A stretch of DNA of 44,801 bases, taken from NCBI GenBank assembly GCA_020721645.1, contig DYMH01000015.1:1-44801 (forward strand), read 5' to 3'. Source of the DNA: Draconibacterium orientale. GTDB lineage: Bacteria > Bacteroidota > Bacteroidia > Bacteroidales > JAADGE01. The first letter of the stretch is position 1; every line of letters begins with the position of its first letter. Of this stretch, positions 21,416 to 32,661 are shown one piece after another. The notes below the pieces were generated by a model, which saw only the letters and a program-made list of their open reading frames with translations, had not been told where the DNA came from and ran no database searches. A program made the translations under genes and the position numbers.

Positions 21416-21423
21416 TATCTTTG
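21416..21423 (+). promoter_or_regulatory. Candidate promoter of the Sia-like operon
   Basis: TATCTTTG (21416-21423) matches TAnnTTTG. The nearest TTG (21389-21391) gives a long 24-nt spacer. A second TATTTTTG (21446-21453) lies only 10 nt before the ATG at 21464, with TTTG 22 nt upstream. Either could drive the operon. Confidence 0.45.
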
Positions 21424-21463
21424 GAAGTTAAAGAAATATAATTTATATTTTTGTTCGGCTTCT

Positions 21464-24118
21464 ATGAAATTCCCAAAGCAAACCATAAAATTTCATTTGT
21501 TGATGCTTCTTGCGTCCGGATTTGCCGGCAGTTTGCTGTCTTTATTTTTTTTCTTCACCTTGTCCGGCAGAATACAAATCGAAGACGATAAAAATAAAGT
21601 AATTCAAAGGAATATTACCGAAATTCAAAACATTTCCTACAATTTACGCCTTATCGATACCCCAAATCCCCAATTCGATGAAATTGATTATTCGGTTCGT
21701 ATCATCGATTTATCAACCATTTGCATCGTTGAAGGAGGAATACCTCCCGATTTTATAAAAGTATCGAATCTTCCGAAAGCTGATAATTCGATGATAGCAG
21801 AACTTGAAAATATTCAAAAAATTTGGGAGAAATTTAAGGAAAAAAAGAGCACCATTATCGGAGAACCTCTATACAACAACATTAAAACTCCTTTCGATAC
21901 AATTATCAACGGCAACAGAATAGAACATTTCAAAACAACGGTTGTTTATAATCCGAAAATAGCCGAAGCTCAATCCGAAATTCAAAAACTGATAATCGAG
22001 TATCGTACTGAAAACGAAAAATTGAGTCAGTTAATAGAAACAAAAAAATCAAAATTAATTTTATATCAAAGTCTAAGTATTTTACTGATAATTTTATTAA
22101 TTGGGTTTGTTTCTTTTCGTATCTATAAAATTGTAAAAAATAGAGTACTAAAAAACATAAAAACTGTTGAAACAGCAACACACAAGATTATCAACGGCGA
22201 AGTAGAGAATATGGATTTAGCCTACTCGCAGGAAGATGAATTGAAACAGCTTTATGAAACTGCCAATCAGTTGAAATTCAAAATATTGGATATAACGCAG
22301 TATGTTCAAAATCTTGAAAATGATAATTTTTTAACACGTTTAGACCAATATAACAAAACGAACAAGCTCGACATTGCTTTAGTGGCTTTGCGTCGGAATT
22401 TAAACAAGAAAAAAATAGAAGAGCAAACCCGAATTTCTGAAGAAAAAATAAGGCAGTGGTCATTAGAAGGGCAAACAAAATTTAATGAAATACTTCGCAG
22501 CCATGCTTCAGATTTTAACGAATTGGCAGATGATATTATTAAAAATTTAGTTTTATTTCTAAATGCAGCCCAAGGCGGTTTATTTATATACAACGATAAT
22601 GATTTGCAGGAGCCGTTCTTGGAATTAAAATCGGCATTTGCCTACGACCGAAAAAAATTCCTGACAAAAAGAATAGCACTCGGAGAAGGTTTGATAGGAA
22701 TGTGTGCCGTAGAACGAAATTTAGTTTATTTAACAAATATTCCGCCCGATTATATGGAAATCGAATCGGGGCTTGGAGATGCTATTCCTAAAAGTCTATT
22801 AATTTTCCCTTTGAAAACTGAAACCGAACTCATGGGGGTTATCGAAATTGCATCATTTTTTGAAATCAAGCAATACGAAGTTGAATTTATTGAAAATATC
22901 GGGCAAAATATTACTTCAACCCTAGCAAACTCGCGAATTGGTACACGAACTTCGGAATTATTGAAAGAATCTCAGAAAAAATCCGAAGAACTTGCAATGC
23001 GTGATGCCGAAATGCAGAAAAGTATTCGGGAAATGCGTTCAACACAAGAAGAAGCACAACAAAAAGAAGCCGAAATGAACAGCATTCTTTCTGCTGTTGA
23101 TCAAACCCTGCTAAAAGCCGAATTTTTAACCGATGGCAGCATTATTTCGATGAATAGGTTGTATTTATCAAAAATGGAATATCATTTTGAGGAATTAAAA
23201 CATAAAAAAGTTTTCGATTTTTTTCGGGCTGAAGAAGTTGCCTCATTCAGAGAAATTTGGCAAAAACTTATTGCAGACCAAACTTCCGGATTAGAACATA
23301 GACAACTATCAAAAAATAAAAATATTTTATGGTTTTTATCTCAATATTCACCCATAAAAAATGAGAGTGGAAACGTTGTGAGAATCCTGTATTTAGGTAA
23401 TGACGTAACACATCAAGAAGAACTCGAAGAACGTAATCAAAACCTGCTCAACGAAACCCTCGGAAAAACTATTTTGATTTCGACCCACGAAAATACGATT
23501 AAACAACAATCAGCCGAGCTTCATCACAAACAAGAACAGGTTCAAAATCAAGATGTCGAAATTAGCTCACTTCAAACAGCAATCGACAATAGCTTGCTCA
23601 AAGCCGAATATTCGACACGAGGAAGTATTATAAATGCAAATATCAAATTTTTATCAACTTACAAAATAGGTTTCGACTCGTTAAACACACAAAATGTTCG
23701 AGACTTTATCCCCAAAGACCATTTGCCCGCTTTCGAGCAGCAGTGGAGCAATTTGCATTTGGGAATTCCATTTCATGGCATTTCTCAGAGAATGACCGAA
23801 AACGCTCAAGAACTGTGGCTTTCGGAAGCCTACACTCCAATTGAAGACAAAGACGGCATTATCTTTAAAATCATATATTTAGCCATAGATATTACAGAAC
23901 TCATAACGAATAAAAAATCGGGCGATATTTCAAGAGAAGAATTGAATAAAACCAATCAGGAATTAGTGAATAATTTCAATGAAATCAGTAAACAAACAAA
24001 TTTACTGAAAAAAGAAATTCAAGCCAAAAAAGATTATAATGCCGCATTGATGAAAAGATTTGAATCTCCGGCAGATAAAAAATATTATACATGGTTACAA
24101 AATTTAAAAATATCTTAA
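21464..24118 (+). CDS. Membrane sensor with GAF and two PAS domains, no recognised output domain
   Basis: This is an 884-residue protein with a transmembrane helix at about 11-33, a periplasmic region of about 160 residues, a second helix at about 197-220 and a HAMP-like linker. A GAF domain follows (about 335-490), then a coiled coil, a PAS-like domain (about 545-655), another coiled coil and a second PAS-like domain (about 705-820), ending in coiled coil. No histidine kinase, GGDEF or PP2C domain follows. The GAF domain is a clear paralogue of that in the next protein; both share a GLFIY/GAFYIY start, GEGLIG/GQGLVG and IPPDYMEI/IPDEYMSI. It probably senses an envelope signal and works with the phosphatase downstream. 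The two genes are separated by 113 nt. Confidence 0.85.
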   Translation: MKFPKQTIKFHLLMLLASGFAGSLLSLFFFFTLSGRIQIEDDKNKVIQRNITEIQNISYNLRLIDTPNPQFDEIDYSVRIIDLSTICIVEGGIPPDFIKVSNLPKADNSMIAELENIQKIWEKFKEKKSTIIGEPLYNNIKTPFDTIINGNRIEHFKTTVVYNPKIAEAQSEIQKLIIEYRTENEKLSQLIETKKSKLILYQSLSILLIILLIGFVSFRIYKIVKNRVLKNIKTVETATHKIINGEVENMDLAYSQEDELKQLYETANQLKFKILDITQYVQNLENDNFLTRLDQYNKTNKLDIALVALRRNLNKKKIEEQTRISEEKIRQWSLEGQTKFNEILRSHASDFNELADDIIKNLVLFLNAAQGGLFIYNDNDLQEPFLELKSAFAYDRKKFLTKRIALGEGLIGMCAVERNLVYLTNIPPDYMEIESGLGDAIPKSLLIFPLKTETELMGVIEIASFFEIKQYEVEFIENIGQNITSTLANSRIGTRTSELLKESQKKSEELAMRDAEMQKSIREMRSTQEEAQQKEAEMNSILSAVDQTLLKAEFLTDGSIISMNRLYLSKMEYHFEELKHKKVFDFFRAEEVASFREIWQKLIADQTSGLEHRQLSKNKNILWFLSQYSPIKNESGNVVRILYLGNDVTHQEELEERNQNLLNETLGKTILISTHENTIKQQSAELHHKQEQVQNQDVEISSLQTAIDNSLLKAEYSTRGSIINANIKFLSTYKIGFDSLNTQNVRDFIPKDHLPAFEQQWSNLHLGIPFHGISQRMTENAQELWLSEAYTPIEDKDGIIFKIIYLAIDITELITNKKSGDISREELNKTNQELVNNFNEISKQTNLLKKEIQAKKDYNAALMKRFESPADKKYYTWLQNLKIS

Positions 24119-24231
24119 AAATTTGTTATAGTTTGAAAAAATGTAAATTTGAAAATCATTTTCAACCAAAATTCACAACTAAATCTCAATATCACCAAAC
24201 AAAAAATACGGTCAATTCAGAAACAGCATTA

Positions 24232-26832
24232 ATGAAAGTATTCAATCCAAATCGAAAAAATACAAACTATGCACGGAAATATATCCTTGCGTGGGCTTTC
24301 TTTGGTTTGCTACTCACACTGACTGTTTGGACCTACGAAATCTTTATTAAAGATTTATCACAGCGATTCAACGATATCCTGAATCTGCATTTTAATAATC
24401 CGGAATTATTTCTTATCGACATATTACCGTTACTATTTGGATTCATTGCCCATAGGATAACTCGCAACTACAAAGAAAAAATTAAAAATCTGCTTGAAGA
24501 CATCTCGCAAAAAGACCAACTTATTAATAAAAATACAGAATTTGCTAAAAATATTGGCAAAGGCGATTTTTCATCACTTCCGACAATTATTTCCGCCGAC
24601 GATACTATCGGAAATTCTTTACTTCTGATGCGAGACAACTTAGTGGCAAATTATCAAAAAGAAAACGAACAAAACTGGATTGCACGAGGAAAAGAAATCA
24701 TTCGAGATGTATTAAGTCACCATACGAATATCGAAATATTGGCTTACGAAACATTGGTCAGCCTTATCAATTATACAAATACAATACAAGGGGCTTTTTA
24801 TATTTACGATGATACAGAAAAAAAATTAATCAACATTGCTTCATATGCCTATAATCGAAAAAAATACGTAAATCAAGAATTCCGAATCGGACAAGGATTG
24901 GTGGGACAAGCTGCATACGAGAAAGATTTTATTTATCGTCGCGAAATTCCGGACGAATACATGAGCATCAGTTCCGGAATATTAGGAACAAAAAAACCTA
25001 AAACAATTTTACTCGTACCTCTTATCAGCGATGAAAAATTACAAGGTGTGGTCGAATTTGCATCACTCGACCACGATTTAGACCCGCCCGTTATTGCTTT
25101 AATCCGAGAATTAGGTGAAATTATCGCCCAAACACTCTACACTCTCAAAGTTAATACACAGACCGAAAATCTTTTGCGAGAATCACAAGAATTGACCAAA
25201 AGACTTCAAAAAAATGAAGACGATTTACGACGAAATGCCGAGCAAATGCAACGAACACAAAAAGAGCTCGAAAACTCGAACCGGGAATTAGCTTCGCAAA
25301 TTGCCGAAGTCGAAAAAGGACAAAATCGCCTCTTTGCACTACTCCAAAACGCATCGGAAGTTATTACCATTTACGATTCCGATGGGATTGTTAAATATGT
25401 CAGCCCTTCGGTGAAAAGCATACTTGGTTTTGACACCGATGAAATGATAGGAAAAAACAGATTCGACCGAGGCGAATCGATTTTGCAAGACGCATTTAAT
25501 CAGTTACTCAGAGAACCACACGTGCCCCGAACTTTTGAATATCACTATCAAAATAAAAATAAAGAACAACTGTGGCTTGAAACAACAGGGCGAAATCTTC
25601 TAAACAATTCTGCAATCAGCGGAATTCTTTTCAATACCCGAGATATAACCGTTCGGAAAGTTGCCGAAAAAGCACAACGTATGAGCGGGGAAATGCAAGC
25701 CCTGTCGGAAAATTCTCCCGATTTAATCATTCGTATTGCCCCCGATGGAAAATTCTATTATGCTAACCCCATGATATCCGATTATATGGGCGTTACACCC
25801 ATACAAGTTATCAAAAAAGGGATTGACGAAATCAATATTAACAATCAAATTAAAGAAATTTTTCGAAACGTTTTAACAACAGTTTTGGAATCAGGCAAAA
25901 AATTTGATGCAGAAACTCTGTTCAAAACTGATGAAAGCGAACGGATTATTCACTTAAATGCCATTCCGGAATACAACAAACAACGGGAAATGGAAACTGT
26001 TTTGTTTGTAGCACACGACATCACGGAACGAAAAAGAATTGAAACCGAAATTGAAGAAAAAAATAAAAGTATCACAGAAAGTATCAATTATGCCCAAAGA
26101 ATTCAAACGGCAATAATTCCGGATAACGATTTAATAATGAGGTTTTTACCCAAGTCGTTTGTCATGTATAAACCACGAGATGTCGTCAGCGGTGATTTTC
26201 CATGGTTTTTTGAAAACGGAGATTTTGTGTATATTGCAGCCGTCGATTGCACAGGTCATGGTGTTCCGGGAGCCTTGTTATCGTTTATCGGATACTTTAT
26301 TCTCAACAACATTGTGGACCACGACAACACGCTCAATGCAGGACAAATATTGGATAAACTCCACGAACAAGTGCGAAAAACTTTAAAACAAGATACACCC
26401 GAAGCAAATGCAAGAGATGGCATGGATATTGCTTTGTGTAAAATAAATTCTCGTGCAAAAGAAATTCATTATGCCGGAGCTCATCGACCGATGTATTTTT
26501 GCAGAGGAAATGAAATTACACAATATAAGGGAGATCCAAAAGCAGTTGGAGGAATTCCGGTAAAAAGAGGGAAAAAAGAAGACGATTTCGTAAATTATGC
26601 CATAAAAATTGAAACAGGTGATAAAATTTTTATATTTTCGGACGGTTTACCCGACCAAATCGGAGGCGAAGACGGTCGGAAATATCAAGCTAAAAGAATA
26701 CGAGACATAATCGCCGAAAAAAATGAGCTGAGCATGCCCGAATATCAAGAATATTTTGAGAGTGATTTATTGAATTGGAAAGGAAAATACAAACAAATTG
26801 ATGATATTCTATTAATAGGAATTGAGTTTTAG
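24232..26832 (+). CDS. SiaA/RsbU-like membrane PP2C phosphatase with GAF and PAS sensors
   Basis: This is an 866-residue protein from ATG 24232; an earlier in-frame ATG at 24091 lies inside the preceding gene and adds a poor extension. It has transmembrane helices at about 17-37 and 58-74, a GAF domain (about 165-305), coiled coil, PAS (about 365-475), PAS (about 487-600), the linker SINYAQRIQTAIIP and a SpoIIE/PP2C domain (about 630-866). Metal-site aspartates are visible: Asp655 (VVSGDF), Asp672 (VDCTGHGVPGA), FSDG, and QIDDILL at the end. Such phosphatases dephosphorylate a partner protein; the SiaC-like protein two genes downstream is the obvious substrate. Confidence 0.92.
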   Translation: MKVFNPNRKNTNYARKYILAWAFFGLLLTLTVWTYEIFIKDLSQRFNDILNLHFNNPELFLIDILPLLFGFIAHRITRNYKEKIKNLLEDISQKDQLINKNTEFAKNIGKGDFSSLPTIISADDTIGNSLLLMRDNLVANYQKENEQNWIARGKEIIRDVLSHHTNIEILAYETLVSLINYTNTIQGAFYIYDDTEKKLINIASYAYNRKKYVNQEFRIGQGLVGQAAYEKDFIYRREIPDEYMSISSGILGTKKPKTILLVPLISDEKLQGVVEFASLDHDLDPPVIALIRELGEIIAQTLYTLKVNTQTENLLRESQELTKRLQKNEDDLRRNAEQMQRTQKELENSNRELASQIAEVEKGQNRLFALLQNASEVITIYDSDGIVKYVSPSVKSILGFDTDEMIGKNRFDRGESILQDAFNQLLREPHVPRTFEYHYQNKNKEQLWLETTGRNLLNNSAISGILFNTRDITVRKVAEKAQRMSGEMQALSENSPDLIIRIAPDGKFYYANPMISDYMGVTPIQVIKKGIDEININNQIKEIFRNVLTTVLESGKKFDAETLFKTDESERIIHLNAIPEYNKQREMETVLFVAHDITERKRIETEIEEKNKSITESINYAQRIQTAIIPDNDLIMRFLPKSFVMYKPRDVVSGDFPWFFENGDFVYIAAVDCTGHGVPGALLSFIGYFILNNIVDHDNTLNAGQILDKLHEQVRKTLKQDTPEANARDGMDIALCKINSRAKEIHYAGAHRPMYFCRGNEITQYKGDPKAVGGIPVKRGKKEDDFVNYAIKIETGDKIFIFSDGLPDQIGGEDGRKYQAKRIRDIIAEKNELSMPEYQEYFESDLLNWKGKYKQIDDILLIGIEF

Positions 26833-26856
26833 TAAAGATATACAAAACGTTGAGTT

Positions 26857-27435
26857 ATGACAGAAACAAACGATAAACAATCATCTTTAGACTTTGTCTA
26901 TGATTTTTATGTCAAGATGAAAAAAAATCGGATTAATTTGGCTTACGAAGGAGAAATCACACACCAAATTACCAAAGCTTTTACATCATTGACCGAGAAC
27001 AATATGGCATTGGACGATGACTCGAACACGGTTCAGAAGAAAGTTTTCCATGTCATGGTTGAATGTTTGCAAAATATAAGCAAACATGCCGAAAATAGAC
27101 ATAGTGTTGTTACCTCAAAAGACGGGCGCGGTATTTTTATGGTCAGCAAAGGTGAACATGAATATAATGTAACCACAGGAAACATTATCAGAAATGATAA
27201 GGTGGCTGAACTAAAAAAAATGCTCGAAAATATCAACAGTCTTGACAAAGAAGGTCTCAAAAATTTATATAAACAACAAATGCGAGAGGGGCGGCTGTCA
27301 GAAAAAGGCGGAGCTGGGCTCGGATTTATCGACATCGTTCGCAAAACAGGCGAAAAATTGATATTTTCATTTCTCGATATCGATGAGTCCAATTCTTTCT
27401 TTGTTCTAACTTCAACCATTTCCAGAATCAGCTAA
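26857..27435 (+). CDS. SiaB-family protein kinase (DUF6272)
   Basis: This 192-residue cytosolic protein is related to GHKL-type anti-sigma kinases. An N-box-like segment, VECLQNISKHAE (68-79), and a glycine-rich box, EKGGAGLGFIDI (149-160), are visible. Family placement (SiaB/DUF6272) rests on these motifs and on gene order. In Pseudomonas aeruginosa SiaB phosphorylates a threonine of SiaC and SiaA reverses this. Here the gene starts 24 nt after the PP2C phosphatase gene and ends 13 nt before the SiaC-like gene, the same A-B-C order. The kinase target is therefore inferred to be the next gene product. Confidence 0.87.
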   Translation: MTETNDKQSSLDFVYDFYVKMKKNRINLAYEGEITHQITKAFTSLTENNMALDDDSNTVQKKVFHVMVECLQNISKHAENRHSVVTSKDGRGIFMVSKGEHEYNVTTGNIIRNDKVAELKKMLENINSLDKEGLKNLYKQQMREGRLSEKGGAGLGFIDIVRKTGEKLIFSFLDIDESNSFFVLTSTISRIS

Positions 27436-27448
27436 TTAAATCAACAAT

Positions 27449-27838
27449 ATGCAAGCAATAAAAATTCCCGGCTCTGATGATACGCCAAAAGTAATATTAG
27501 ACGCCACGGCAGAAAACCCTCTTTTTGAAATTTCCGGACGTTCGCTTCCCGAAGATGTTGTCGCATTCTACGATCCCATTCTCGAATGGCTCGATGAATA
27601 TGCCCAGAAACCATTGAAAAAAACAATTTTCAATTTCAAACTCGAGTATTTCAATACCGCTTCCTCAAAATTATTACTTGATATTCTTCTCAAACTCGAA
27701 GATATGCACCAAGACGGAGCCGATGTTCTGGTTCGATGGCATTTTCCCGATGACGATGAAGATATGGAAGAGGCCGGTGAAGAATATGCCGACATCGTTG
27801 AAGTTCCCTTCGAACAAGTCAGTTATTCTATTGATTAG
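27449..27838 (+). CDS. SiaC-family regulatory phosphoprotein (DUF1987)
   Basis: This is a 129-residue acidic cytosolic protein. It has the DUF1987/SiaC pattern: an N-terminal PKVILDATAENPLFEISGRS segment, then LPEDVVAFYDPILEWLDEY, then FKLEYFNTASSKLLLDIL (63-80). The Thr in YFNTASSK (Thr70) lies close to the position of the phosphorylated Thr68 reported for P. aeruginosa SiaC and is the candidate phospho-site. SiaC acts as a switch whose unphosphorylated form binds and activates an output enzyme. There the output is the diguanylate cyclase SiaD; here no GGDEF protein is encoded, and an ABC transporter gene follows by 59 nt. Confidence 0.9.
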   Translation: MQAIKIPGSDDTPKVILDATAENPLFEISGRSLPEDVVAFYDPILEWLDEYAQKPLKKTIFNFKLEYFNTASSKLLLDILLKLEDMHQDGADVLVRWHFPDDDEDMEEAGEEYADIVEVPFEQVSYSID

Positions 27839-27897
27839 TTTTGAAAATCAAAACTCCCGCCGTGTATTTTCTGTGGTCTTTTGAAATAAGATAACCC

Positions 27898-30800
27898 ATG
27901 AGTGAAGAAATATTAAAAGCCTTAATGCAATTGTTTGCAATCATTGCAAAACAAGATGAAGGCGTTGAAAAAAACGAAGTTAAATATGTCGAAACTTTTC
28001 TTCGATCGCAGCTCAGTGAAGATGCTGTTGAGGAATATATGGATTTATTCACAAAAAAAGCCGCAGCCGAAGAACGAACCCTAAAACGAAAATCGCAGGT
28101 ACGCGATTCAGATGCCAAAAGAACCAGCGTTATTGATTCGGTTCGCGTTCTGGGAATATGCAAAAAGATCAATAAAACACTTAGCCAAAAGCAAAAAGTG
28201 ATTGTTTTGGCTCGTTTGTACGAACTCATTAATGTTGATAAAAAATTCTCCAAATTGCGAATGGAGATTATCAACACGGTAGCCGAAGTATTTAACATCA
28301 CAAAATCGGAATTTGTTGATATCGAGACCTTTGTCATGCAAGACATCATGCGAGAACTCGACAGGGAAACTCTTTTGGTAATCAACGACAGCAACGACCG
28401 AGGCTTGCACGCCAAACACATTAAAACAGAGTCGCTTCACGGAAATATTGTCATTTTGCAAGTAAAAAGTGCAGAACTTTTTTTCTTGAAATATACAGGC
28501 AAACAAGACGTTTTTTTGAACGGATTGACCATTTACAACAATCGGATTTATCTTTTCGCACCCGGAAGTACCATAAAACTACCCAAAGGAAGACCCGTTT
28601 ATTACAGCGATGTTGTAGCCAATTACATGGCAGATTTAAAAATCTCCAAACTTTCCTTTGAAGTAAAAGACCTGCAATTTACATTCCAAACCGGCGACAT
28701 CGGCTTACGCAATATCAATTTTTCGGTCAATCACGGAAAATTAGTCGGAATTATGGGAGCAAGCGGTTCCGGTAAAACCACCATGCTCAATGCCCTGTCC
28801 GGTATTACGGCACCTTCATCGGGTGAAGTGCTTATCAACGGAATCGATTTGCATCGCCAACACGAGCGCCTCGAAGGCGTTATTGGTTATATTCCGCAAG
28901 ACGATTTGTTAATAGAAGAACTCACAGTTTTTCAAAACTTATATTACAACGCCAAACTCTGTTTTAAAGAAAAAAATGAAGAAGAACTCGTTGCCGTTGT
29001 CAATAAAACACTCAAAGATTTAGGACTTTTCGACCGAAAAGACCTAAAAGTAGGTAACGCCATGAACAAAATGATAAGCGGCGGACAACGAAAACGCCTT
29101 AATATTGCTTTGGAATTGATACGCGAACCCTCTATTCTTTTTGTTGATGAACCAACATCGGGGCTTTCATCGCGCGATTCCGAAAATGTCATGGAGCTAC
29201 TCTCCGAATTAACTTTGAAGGGGAAATTGATATTTGTCGTAATCCATCAACCGGCATCGGATATTTACAAAATGTTCGACCGAATGATGATACTCGATAA
29301 CGGCGGATACCTTATTTATTACGGAAATCCGGTAGAAGCCATCGTCTATTTCAAAACCATTGACAACCAAATAAACAGCGAAGTGGGCGAATGTCCAACA
29401 TGCGGCAATGTAACCCCCGAGTTGATATTTAATATCGTAGAAGCCAAAGTTGTTGATGAATTTGGACAATATACCGAACAGCGAAAAATTACACCACCTC
29501 AATGGGAAAATCACTTTAAAACAAAAGAAATTCTCGAAGAGGTAGAAAAAAATTCCGACAACCCAATATCAACATTAAACATTCCGGGGTGGTTTCGACA
29601 ATTAAAAATATTCACGATTCGCGATGTTCTGTCAAAAATTAGCAATCGACAATATTTAGTTCTCAATCTGATAGAATCGCCTCTCTTAGGATTTATATTA
29701 GCTTTTTTGATTCGCTATATTGCCGACCCCGCATCGAATATCTACATTTTTTACGACAATAAAAATATACCACCCTATATTTTTATGAGTATTGTCGTTG
29801 CATTGTTTTTGGGTTTAACAGTCAGTGCGGAAGAAATTTACAGAGACAGAAAAATATTAAAACGTGAAAAATTTCTGAATTTAAGTCGTTCGTCATATTT
29901 AATGTCTAAAATATCAATCCTCGTTTTTATATCCGCAGTTCAAGCAATTCTTTATGTGCTCATCGGAAATTCGATACTCGGCATTCGCGGCATGATATTC
30001 GAATATTGGTTGTTTTTGTTTACCACCTTTGTCTTTGCCAACATGATGGGCTTAAATATATCGGCAACATTCAATTCAGCAGTTACCATCTACATACTTA
30101 TTCCTTTGTTACTCATACCTCAAATGGCACTCGGAGGAGCGATGTTCAGTTTCGATAAACTCAACCGCATGATAGGCAGTGTGGATAAAGTGCCCTTGGT
30201 TGCAGAATTTATGGCTTCACGCTGGGCTTATGAAGCCTTGATGGTGCATCAATTTAAACACAATGAATTTGAAGAAGTCTATTTTGAAGTAGATCGTTTG
30301 AAAAGTATCGCCGGATTTAAACAAACCTATTTTTTGCCACAACTCATCGAAAGTCTTGATGCAATAGAAATTCTGCAAGAAGAAATAAATGAAAAAGGAG
30401 CCAATAAAGATTCCATCAGAAAAGAAATGAACATTGAGTTTGCGTTACTCAAAAACGAAATGAGTAAAGAAAATACACGAATTATTAAAGTGAAAAATGA
30501 ACTCATCAACCGAAAATTAATATCAACTGTCGATGACGATACACATATTCTTGTTCCGCCAGATGTTTTTAAATTGATGAATCCGCAGAAATTCGATTCT
30601 GAAGCAAATGAAGAAGTTAGGGAATATATTAAAATTTGGGACGAATTTTATTCGGTCGTCTTTGCCAAAGCCGATACAAAAAAAGAAAAAATGAAGGACT
30701 GGCAGAATAACAATGAAGCAGGATCCTTTAATCAACGCAGAAAAGATTATCATAACGAAAATTTAGATGATATTGTACGAAATGTATATGAAAAAAATAA

Positions 30801-31140
30801 AATTTTACGTTACAAAGACAAGTTAATCCAGCAAGATGAGCCAATATTTTTAGACCCCGACGATTCTGATTTTATTGGTTTCAGAACCCATTTTTTTGCC
30901 CCCAAAAAATATTTTTTAGGTCAATTTTATGAAACTTTTTGGTTTAATATTACCGTTATTTGGTTCATGTCTATTTCCTTGTATATCCCTTTGTATTATG
31001 AGCATTTGAAAAAGATTATTGATATGTTTGATAATATTTCGACAAGCTTGAAAAAACGAAAGAAAAAGAAAATTAAAGCAATTCAGGAAGTTAAAGTTAA
31101 AAGTGCCGAAGAACCGGAAGAAGAGAAAAACGACGATTAA
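27898..31140 (+). CDS. ABCG-type ABC transporter with N-terminal TerB-like and FHA-like regions
   Basis: This is a 1080-residue half-transporter. Residues 1-150 form a helical, TerB-like region. Residues about 160-245 have a beta pattern vaguely like an FHA domain (VFLNGLTIYNNRIYLFAPGS). The nucleotide-binding domain has Walker A GASGSGKT (287-294), signature ISGGQRKR (393-400), Walker B ILFVDEPTSGL (413-423) and H-loop His450, all ABCG/White-like. A CPTC pair (499-502) follows. Five to six transmembrane helices begin near residue 610, with a large charged loop (about 790-1010) before the last helix and a Lys-rich tail. It probably exports an unknown substrate and, by operon position, may be the output of the Sia-like switch. 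Confidence 0.88.
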   Translation: MSEEILKALMQLFAIIAKQDEGVEKNEVKYVETFLRSQLSEDAVEEYMDLFTKKAAAEERTLKRKSQVRDSDAKRTSVIDSVRVLGICKKINKTLSQKQKVIVLARLYELINVDKKFSKLRMEIINTVAEVFNITKSEFVDIETFVMQDIMRELDRETLLVINDSNDRGLHAKHIKTESLHGNIVILQVKSAELFFLKYTGKQDVFLNGLTIYNNRIYLFAPGSTIKLPKGRPVYYSDVVANYMADLKISKLSFEVKDLQFTFQTGDIGLRNINFSVNHGKLVGIMGASGSGKTTMLNALSGITAPSSGEVLINGIDLHRQHERLEGVIGYIPQDDLLIEELTVFQNLYYNAKLCFKEKNEEELVAVVNKTLKDLGLFDRKDLKVGNAMNKMISGGQRKRLNIALELIREPSILFVDEPTSGLSSRDSENVMELLSELTLKGKLIFVVIHQPASDIYKMFDRMMILDNGGYLIYYGNPVEAIVYFKTIDNQINSEVGECPTCGNVTPELIFNIVEAKVVDEFGQYTEQRKITPPQWENHFKTKEILEEVEKNSDNPISTLNIPGWFRQLKIFTIRDVLSKISNRQYLVLNLIESPLLGFILAFLIRYIADPASNIYIFYDNKNIPPYIFMSIVVALFLGLTVSAEEIYRDRKILKREKFLNLSRSSYLMSKISILVFISAVQAILYVLIGNSILGIRGMIFEYWLFLFTTFVFANMMGLNISATFNSAVTIYILIPLLLIPQMALGGAMFSFDKLNRMIGSVDKVPLVAEFMASRWAYEALMVHQFKHNEFEEVYFEVDRLKSIAGFKQTYFLPQLIESLDAIEILQEEINEKGANKDSIRKEMNIEFALLKNEMSKENTRIIKVKNELINRKLISTVDDDTHILVPPDVFKLMNPQKFDSEANEEVREYIKIWDEFYSVVFAKADTKKEKMKDWQNNNEAGSFNQRRKDYHNENLDDIVRNVYEKNKILRYKDKLIQQDEPIFLDPDDSDFIGFRTHFFAPKKYFLGQFYETFWFNITVIWFMSISLYIPLYYEHLKKIIDMFDNISTSLKKRKKKKIKAIQEVKVKSAEEPEEEKNDD

Positions 31141-31165
31141 TTTTTTTACTAAAAAATATTTTTAA

Positions 31166-31186
31166 TATCTTTGAACATTAGTTCAA
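31166..31186 (+). promoter_or_regulatory. Candidate promoter with adjoining palindrome
   Basis: TATCTTTG (31166-31173) fits the -7 consensus, 33 nt before the lipoprotein ATG. It overlaps the perfect dyad TTGAAC-ATTA-GTTCAA (31171-31186), which sits at the expected transcription start and could be a repressor site. A -33 element is not obvious. Confidence 0.4.
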
Positions 31187-31206
31187 AATATTAATCAACG
31201 CTGAAT

Positions 31207-32103
31207 ATGAATAAAAAAATCTTACTACTGCTGTTAATTTCGTTTATCATAACCGTTTCATGCAATAGTGGCGGTGATTCGAATAAGCCACCTGAAAATA
31301 TCGGAACCGAAGACGGACCTATTGTTGACCCGGAAGCTATCAATAAAATTATTGAAAGTTTTTCATCGCCTATCGAAACCGCAGCACTTATTGAAGACCT
31401 TAAAGTTGCGTATTCAAATAAATATTTAATTCCAACAGAAGTTGCTTCTGAATTTGACTCAAATTATAAAAAAGCACTCGGCTTAGGCATGCTCAGTTCT
31501 GATTTAGGATATTTGAACGTCTATCAAAGAACAAATTCAATTGTTGAATATTTAACCGTAATACGTCGCCTGTCGGACGATTTAGATGTAGATCAATTTT
31601 TTGATTTCCAAACCTTGAAACGTTTGGCAACCAATAATGAAGATTTAGATTCTTTGATGTTTCTTTCGGTAAACAGCTACAATCGGATGGACGAACACTT
31701 GCGGAAAACCCAACGCAGCGATTTAAGTGCTTTGATGGTTACCGGTGTGTGGCTCGAAGGATTGTATCTTGCCTGTCAAGTGAATAAACAAGCCGATAAT
31801 AAAGAATTTAGGGATAGAATCGGCGAACAAAAAAATATTTTAAATGACCTTATTTTGGTATTGAAATTTTTTGAAAAAAAGCCTCATTTTCCCGAAATTA
31901 TTGCCTCTTTTGCCGAATTAAAAGAACTTTACGATAATGTAAAAATTACCATTCAGGTAGGCGAATCAAAATCGCAACTCGATGAAAAAGGTGTCTATGT
32001 TATTGTGCAAGATGAATACACAGTTGTTGAAATGAGTGATGAACAACTCGAAGAAATATCTAAATTAGTTGAAAAAATACGTAACAAATTAATTTCTGCA
32101 TAA
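31207..32103 (+). CDS. Hypothetical lipoprotein of the Sia-like locus
   Basis: This 298-residue protein has a lysine-rich start, hydrophobic core and lipobox ITVSC followed by a Gly/Ser/Asn linker, so it is a membrane-anchored lipoprotein. The mature part is predominantly helical and acidic, with no recognised enzyme motif. It lies 66 nt after the ABC transporter gene and 1 nt before the secreted-protein gene. The tight pairing with the next gene and location after the exporter suggest a shared envelope function, perhaps as accessory or substrate-handling protein. A possible local promoter would allow separate expression. Confidence 0.82.
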   Translation: MNKKILLLLLISFIITVSCNSGGDSNKPPENIGTEDGPIVDPEAINKIIESFSSPIETAALIEDLKVAYSNKYLIPTEVASEFDSNYKKALGLGMLSSDLGYLNVYQRTNSIVEYLTVIRRLSDDLDVDQFFDFQTLKRLATNNEDLDSLMFLSVNSYNRMDEHLRKTQRSDLSALMVTGVWLEGLYLACQVNKQADNKEFRDRIGEQKNILNDLILVLKFFEKKPHFPEIIASFAELKELYDNVKITIQVGESKSQLDEKGVYVIVQDEYTVVEMSDEQLEEISKLVEKIRNKLISA

Positions 32104-32104
32104 A

Positions 32105-32557
32105 ATGAAGAAGATAACAGTAATATTATTTCCGGTTCTATTTTTTGTGCTTTTTAACCACATTGAAGCCATTGCTCAATGTAAGCAACAAATGGTTTAT
32201 GATTGTGCTACAAACACAAAAGATGCGATTTATTTGAGAGATTTCAATACAAAATTGAAAAAATCTCATCCTGACGAAATGTCCGGGACTAAATGGACGG
32301 TTGTTTTGAATAAAGGAACACGTTATCGGTTCAATTTGTGTACTCCGGAGGGAAACCAAGATGTATTATTAACCCTCTACGACAGTCAACATCCTGAGGC
32401 TACGGCTCCTTATGGTTCTACAAAAGAACGTGATTCGTTTGATTTTATTTGTAAAAAATCCGGTATGTACTATGTTTCAATTCGTTTTAAAGATGAAGGT
32501 GAAAAGAAAAAAACATGTGCCGTCGGAATATTATCTTTTGTTGGTAAAAATCAATAA
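32105..32557 (+). CDS. Hypothetical secreted beta-rich protein of the Sia-like locus
   Basis: This is a 150-residue protein with a classical signal peptide (cleavage probably after IEAIAQ). The mature region (about 50-145) has the rhythm of a small beta-sandwich: WTVVLNKGTRYRFNLCTPEG, DVLLTLYDSQ, FDFICKKSGMYYVSIRF. This recalls the pre-peptidase C-terminal (PPC) type fold, but that is an impression only. Five to six cysteines could form disulfides. The start codon is 1 nt after the lipoprotein stop, indicating translational coupling. It is the last gene before a strong bidirectional terminator. Confidence 0.8.
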   Translation: MKKITVILFPVLFFVLFNHIEAIAQCKQQMVYDCATNTKDAIYLRDFNTKLKKSHPDEMSGTKWTVVLNKGTRYRFNLCTPEGNQDVLLTLYDSQHPEATAPYGSTKERDSFDFICKKSGMYYVSIRFKDEGEKKKTCAVGILSFVGKNQ

Positions 32558-32661
32558 TGCCATTGTATTATTAAAAACACCGCAGGCAAGTTATTAACTT
32601 GTTTGCTTTGTTATTTTACCTTTTTCCCATGATATAAAAGCTTAATTTGAAATAACTCAAT

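Follow-up and report, generated by a model that had tools for sequence, protein, structure and literature searches.

A SiaABC-type partner switch that probably controls an ABCG transporter in Bacteroidota

What does a SiaABC-type partner switch control in a bacterium in whose genome no GGDEF domain can be found? The question is posed by a 44,801-nucleotide stretch of Draconibacterium orientale DNA (contig DYMH01000015.1, analysed whole and called the window here), where seven genes follow one another in tandem on the + strand at positions 21464-32557 and a siaC-like gene stands directly 5' of a gene for an ABCG-type ATP-binding cassette (ABC) transporter. We find that the switch probably controls this transporter system, via the cytosolic N-terminal region of the transporter. 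The evidence is the gene content of the locus, its conservation as a block, a recurring linkage, a natural fusion and the failure to find a GGDEF target. The seven genes are:

21464..24118, + strand: membrane sensor, 884 residues; two transmembrane (TM) segments around a periplasmic loop, GAF, two PAS, coiled coil
24232..26832, + strand: SiaA-like phosphatase; N-terminal TM segments, GAF, two PAS, C-terminal SpoIIE/PP2C
26857..27435, + strand: SiaB-family kinase (DUF6272), 192 residues; matches NF038262 and a solved SiaB
27449..27838, + strand: SiaC-like STAS-fold phosphoprotein, 129 residues, predicted phospho-site Thr70; matches Pfam PF09345
27898..31140, + strand: ABCG-type transporter, 1080 residues; assigned by Pfam domains, AlphaFold2 model and Foldseek
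31207..32103, + strand: lipoprotein, 298 residues, mostly helical; lipobox cysteine
32105..32557, + strand: small secreted protein, 150 residues; N-terminal signal segment

A preliminary description of the window had proposed this order and these domains. All seven genes do lie on the + strand, the domains were matched by Pfam and NCBIfam, and the 59 nucleotides given between siaC and the transporter gene are exact. The longest open reading frame of the phosphatase begins at 24091; the start is probably the ATG at 24232, because the resulting 866 residues match the orthologues in the same taxonomic order (862-876 residues). With this start the successive spacings are 113, 24, 13, 59, 66 and 1 nucleotides.

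We compared the three switch proteins with their counterparts from Pseudomonas aeruginosa. The phosphatase joins a SpoIIE/PP2C domain to a sensory N-terminal part; its C-terminal part matches the SiaA model (183 bits), and the PP2C domain matches that of the solved P. aeruginosa SiaA with an expectation value (E) of 4e-40. The kinase scored 174.8 bits against NF038262 (cut-off 85) and E 1e-15 against the solved P. aeruginosa SiaB, and SiaC scored 133 bits against PF09345 (cut-off 24.5). Thr70 of SiaC, in the motif YFNTASSK, aligns with the phospho-site of P. aeruginosa SiaC. Neither SiaB nor SiaC has a membrane or signal segment. Judged by their sequences, the three probably form a SiaABC module in the broad sense, in which kinase and phosphatase are predicted to act on SiaC. 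They score below the strict Pseudomonas SiaABCD equivalog cut-offs (SiaA 183, SiaB 90 and SiaC 80 bits, against 700, 225 and 150). The membrane sensor encoded first in the locus carries no catalytic domain.

The transporter has its ATPase N-terminal to a six-TM ABC-2 domain, in the ABCG fold. The AlphaFold2 model, built with 92 relatives, had a mean predicted local distance difference test score of 87.7 and a predicted template modelling score of 0.78. Its best solved matches in Foldseek were ABCG transporters with human ABCG5/G8 on top (E about 1e-25 to 1e-20, TM-score 0.68-0.79 on target length). Ahead of the ATPase lies a cytosolic region of ~250 residues, in which a TerB-like helical domain (8-142) is followed by a beta-rich domain (about 158-235). 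Pfam matched TerB in 57 of 70 transporter relatives. The beta-rich region gave a weak profile match to the FHA domain of MEK1 (E 0.02), and an FHA search of 74 relatives gave one match, also weak (E 0.08). A further large domain of ~260 residues with long helices (about 753-1013; window 30154-30936) is inserted between TM5 and TM6, and is expected in the periplasm by analogy with ABCG topology. This domain is unusual among ABCG proteins and could contact the lipoprotein. The solved structures nearest in fold export lipids and drugs, which makes an envelope lipid a reasonable guess for the substrate, and no more than that. No MlaE or MCE components were among the Pfam matches of the seven proteins.

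If the switch works on the transporter, their genes should keep company elsewhere. The transporter family falls into three main groups, A, B and C. In group A, to which the window belongs, siaC lies upstream on the same strand; in group B the lipoprotein and secreted protein genes lie upstream, and many genomes have a convergent siaC-siaB pair downstream. Across a sample of 247 genomes of the class, 32 of the 148 transporter matches listed had one of the listed SiaC matches no more than 2.5 kb away, where random placement would give about 0.37; the genomes are related rather than independent, so this ratio measures enrichment and is not a probability. Each of the 32 linked pairs had one of two layouts: siaC was upstream in the same orientation (13) or downstream and convergent (19). 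Among 60 related genomes, the 38 with a close transporter are the same 38 that have a close SiaC, and in one genome, G055 (L049, L057, L113), siaC adjoins the transporter gene in the search tables. The preliminary description had made its reading depend on SiaC and transporter genes being neighbours in relatives, and the linkage held, in two layouts and with a fusion in three genomes. The SiaC tree largely separates the partners of A and B transporters, as does the transporter tree, and locus L168 stands at the base of A in both; SiaC is short, and many forks of its tree are weak.

The Draconibacterium genome itself (G000) also has B-type members. Its B-type SiaC (contig C264) is not beside its B-type transporter (C67): a transposase gene lies 3' of the former, and contig C67 stops just past the latter. 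The stretch in C264 (L009 1530-5614) reads rlmL-siaB-siaC and then the transposase, and in relatives this trio is convergent with a B-type transporter.

The two proteins are also tied together by a natural fusion. Three genomes of two families (G100, G174 and G279) encode a protein of 367-377 residues, in which a transporter-like N-terminal region is followed by a SiaC domain with its phospho-Thr motif intact; the ATPase and membrane part are absent. The fusion gene is placed between siaC and the transporter gene. Pfam confirmed the SiaC domain in G100 and G174, and the N-terminal parts matched the transporter set with best E of 4e-12, 7e-9 and 3e-17, the set searched being small. By the classical logic of fusion evidence, this indicates that SiaC and the N-terminal region of the transporter work together.

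In many families of the class, the last six genes are conserved as a block with sharp limits. The gene order PP2C-SiaB-SiaC-ABCG-lipoprotein-secreted protein recurs in the A-type loci of the same taxonomic order for which enough flank was fetched, and also in families of other orders. With one locus taken from each of 16 families, a homologue was found at block positions -3 to +2 in 74-100% of locus pairs, and for the first genes 3' of the block in 6% and then 0%. Conservation is highest in SiaC (mean identity 72%), followed by the transporter (60%) and the exported pair (45-47%). All seven genes had been put forward as a unit; this stands for the last six, the first sensor being specific to the family of the window. 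Its position is variable: the window's family has the GAF/PAS sensor, which in other families often gives way to CheR, CheB and a GAF protein, as in L111 (3608-5794) and its equivalents, where these three lie 5' of the phosphatase gene.

The lipoprotein and the small secreted protein both carry export signals. The lipobox cysteine of the former, at residue 19, is invariant in 61 relatives. Its fold gave no meaningful match in the PDB and its sequence no match either, and neither exported protein had a family match above threshold in Pfam or NCBIfam. The 150-residue protein has a faint similarity to the PPC beta-sandwich, and is homologous to the secreted protein of group B transporters (98.1% probability). 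Since both proteins are exported, no product of the core block other than the switch proteins and the transporter is exposed to the cytosol. The preliminary description had SiaC gate either the transporter or the exported pair. Linkage and fusion support the first option; direct gating of the pair is unlikely because of the compartments involved, since both members bear export signals and neither SiaB nor SiaC has a membrane or signal segment.

Coupling of the switch and the transporter is thus supported, and its form, gating, is unproven. In the mechanism that we favour, a signal would be sensed by the membrane sensor and by the GAF/PAS input of the phosphatase. The SiaB-family kinase would put a phosphate on Thr70 of SiaC and the PP2C phosphatase would take it off. 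One form of SiaC would then bind the N-terminal region of the transporter (TerB plus beta-rich domain) and alter its activity, the transporter, lipoprotein and small secreted protein together making up a dedicated output system. The form without phosphate is the likeliest to bind, judging from SiaC-SiaD and MlaB-MlaF: unphosphorylated SiaC binds and activates SiaD (PMC8457831), and the STAS protein MlaB binds the ABC ATPase MlaF, a phosphomimetic substitution weakening the binding (PMC7367683). On balance, we lean towards the fuller statement that phospho-controlled docking of SiaC on the TerB-containing region gates the ABCG pump and its exported partners, as a c-di-GMP (cyclic diguanylate)-free mode of control that is widespread and undescribed in Bacteroidota.

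Several findings weigh against this reading. Group C transporters are mostly without SiaC, and the B-type linkage is missing in this genome and beside numerous group B members; a neighbouring SiaC is therefore dispensable for the transporter family. Fusions are rare: when the whole class was searched with the G100 protein, matches at E up to 1e-35 came from G100 and G174 only. Cross-talk among the SiaC copies of the cell is possible, and the STAS-like nature of SiaC is taken from published structures.

The SiaC/SiaB switch is indeed expanded in this genome (L009-L025), with 15 SiaC and 20 SiaB domain matches. There are also two further full-length ABCG paralogues; a scan of the contigs picked up three genuine relatives as well as an ABC protein that is unrelated. 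The window switch is therefore one of many SiaC circuits in the cell. In L019 (6030-12318, contig C224) a 505-residue SiaB-SiaB-SiaC fusion stands beside a 1313-residue SpoIIE protein; the locus also encodes a paralogue of the small secreted protein of the window, at 40% identity, and no ABCG gene was found in the stretch read. L012 (9431-11959, C211) encodes a double-SiaB protein followed by three tandem siaC genes. In L018 (4392-13835, C58) siaB-siaC lies directly 5' of ruvA and sprA; the latter encodes a large type IX secretion and gliding protein, and a SiaC switch may here be connected with secretion. In L022 (7902-12571, C102) a sodium:dicarboxylate symporter gene lies 5' of a C-type transporter, as in several relatives of the family.

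With so many circuits, the main rival reading is that the switch acts on a remotely encoded target, be it a transcription regulator or a further SiaC circuit, and that the transporter is in the operon merely as part of the same envelope response. We regard this as unlikely, if worth serious attention. The abundance of SiaC and SiaB copies permits cross-talk, and SiaC copies also lie near unrelated genes, such as those for RuvA and SprA. A remote target would be compatible with the operon. It leaves unexplained the fusion of SiaC to the N-terminal region of the transporter and the convergent layout, where the genes do not share a transcript; and no regulator gene appeared among the Pfam matches in the block.

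Information could also flow in reverse, the N-terminal region of the transporter and the envelope partners reporting transport or envelope status by holding or releasing SiaC, so that the transporter would be a sensor input. Transporter-coupled sensing is known in other systems, the TM5-TM6 domain and the exported partners could sense the envelope, and the same fusion and linkage data would fit. The switch, however, already has its inputs (the sensor and the GAF/PAS phosphatase, or CheR-CheB-GAF upstream), and the block contains no other output gene, which makes this direction improbable.

That the adjacency is passive synteny, inherited without function, is very improbable: flanking genes are partly conserved too within one family, but downstream flanks are lost between families while the block is kept, the linkage recurs in a second layout, and the fusion exists, all of which contradicts it.

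There is next to no chance that SiaC works in the Pseudomonas manner, its target being a diguanylate cyclase whose gene lies at another place in the genome: the SiaA, SiaB and SiaC homologues are clear, but no GGDEF domain was found in this 97%-complete assembly or in 59 of the 60 genomes searched (its own included), by a search that gave a match in 8 of 14 control genomes. The single exception, G059, is without the transporter family. The earlier claim that no GGDEF gene is present thus extends from the window to the whole assembly; a SiaD-type output is very unlikely, and we reject c-di-GMP as the output.

Candidate signals frame the operon, each assigned by consensus match only:

21420..21453, + strand: candidate Bacteroidota-type promoter, TTTG-N22-TATTTTTG, from a pattern scan; 10 nucleotides 5' of the sensor gene
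24122..24151, + strand: second candidate promoter of this type, from the pattern scan; 5' of the phosphatase gene
32582..32606, + strand: terminator-like hairpin with a T-run, ending the block

The promoter pattern matched 10 times in the window, with 4.4 matches expected.

Among known systems, the closest likeness is to P. aeruginosa SiaABCD, where a PP2C phosphatase, a SiaB kinase and a SiaC with the conserved phospho-threonine are encoded in the same order, and the output gene likewise lies directly 3' of siaC (PMC7647112, PMC8457831). There the output is a diguanylate cyclase, whereas here it is an ABCG transporter; the inputs here are GAF/PAS or CheR-CheB-GAF, and the scores lie far below the Pseudomonas equivalog cut-offs. 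MlaFEDB also pairs a small STAS-type protein, MlaB, with an ABC transporter, and control by STAS phosphorylation has been proposed for it (PMC7367683). MlaB, however, binds the ATPase of an MCE lipid system whose kinase and phosphatase are unknown, whereas here the kinase and phosphatase genes lie beside the switch gene and the fusion points to the extra N-terminal region of an ABCG protein. Mycobacterium tuberculosis Rv1747 (PMC5549992, PMC3908365) is an ABC exporter with an N-terminal cytosolic regulatory region, in an operon with a kinase, the Ser/Thr kinase PknF; control through a partner phosphorylated on threonine may be common to both. In Rv1747 FHA domains read the phospho-threonine; here there are TerB, a beta-rich domain whose likeness to FHA is weak, and a SiaB/PP2C/SiaC switch. 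Human ABCG5/G8, ABCG1 and ABCG2 share the ATPase-then-membrane architecture and the fold of the transporter, but at 20-25% identity and without its extra ~250-residue N-terminal region and ~260-residue TM5-TM6 domain.

Our literature search, within the library used, returned no paper on SiaC with an ABC transporter and no published description of the operon; its results for SiaC in Bacteroidetes were mostly about an unrelated Capnocytophaga sialidase of the same name. So far the biology of SiaC has been known through diguanylate cyclase as its only output. Those who solved the SiaC-SiaD structure proposed that modulation of adjacent proteins may be general among DUF1987 proteins, and the available portion of their paper gives no second worked example (PMC8457831); the authors of the MlaFB work left STAS control of ABC transporters through phosphorylation as an open question (PMC7367683). 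The operon is a ready test case, as it holds kinase, phosphatase, switch protein and transporter within one conserved block. It adds a new output to a known switch, one found widely in a class of Bacteroidota, and places the SiaABC switch in bacteria where no GGDEF enzyme was found. If our reading is true, phospho-controlled docking of SiaC would be a widespread, undescribed form of post-translational transporter control in Bacteroidota that works without c-di-GMP.

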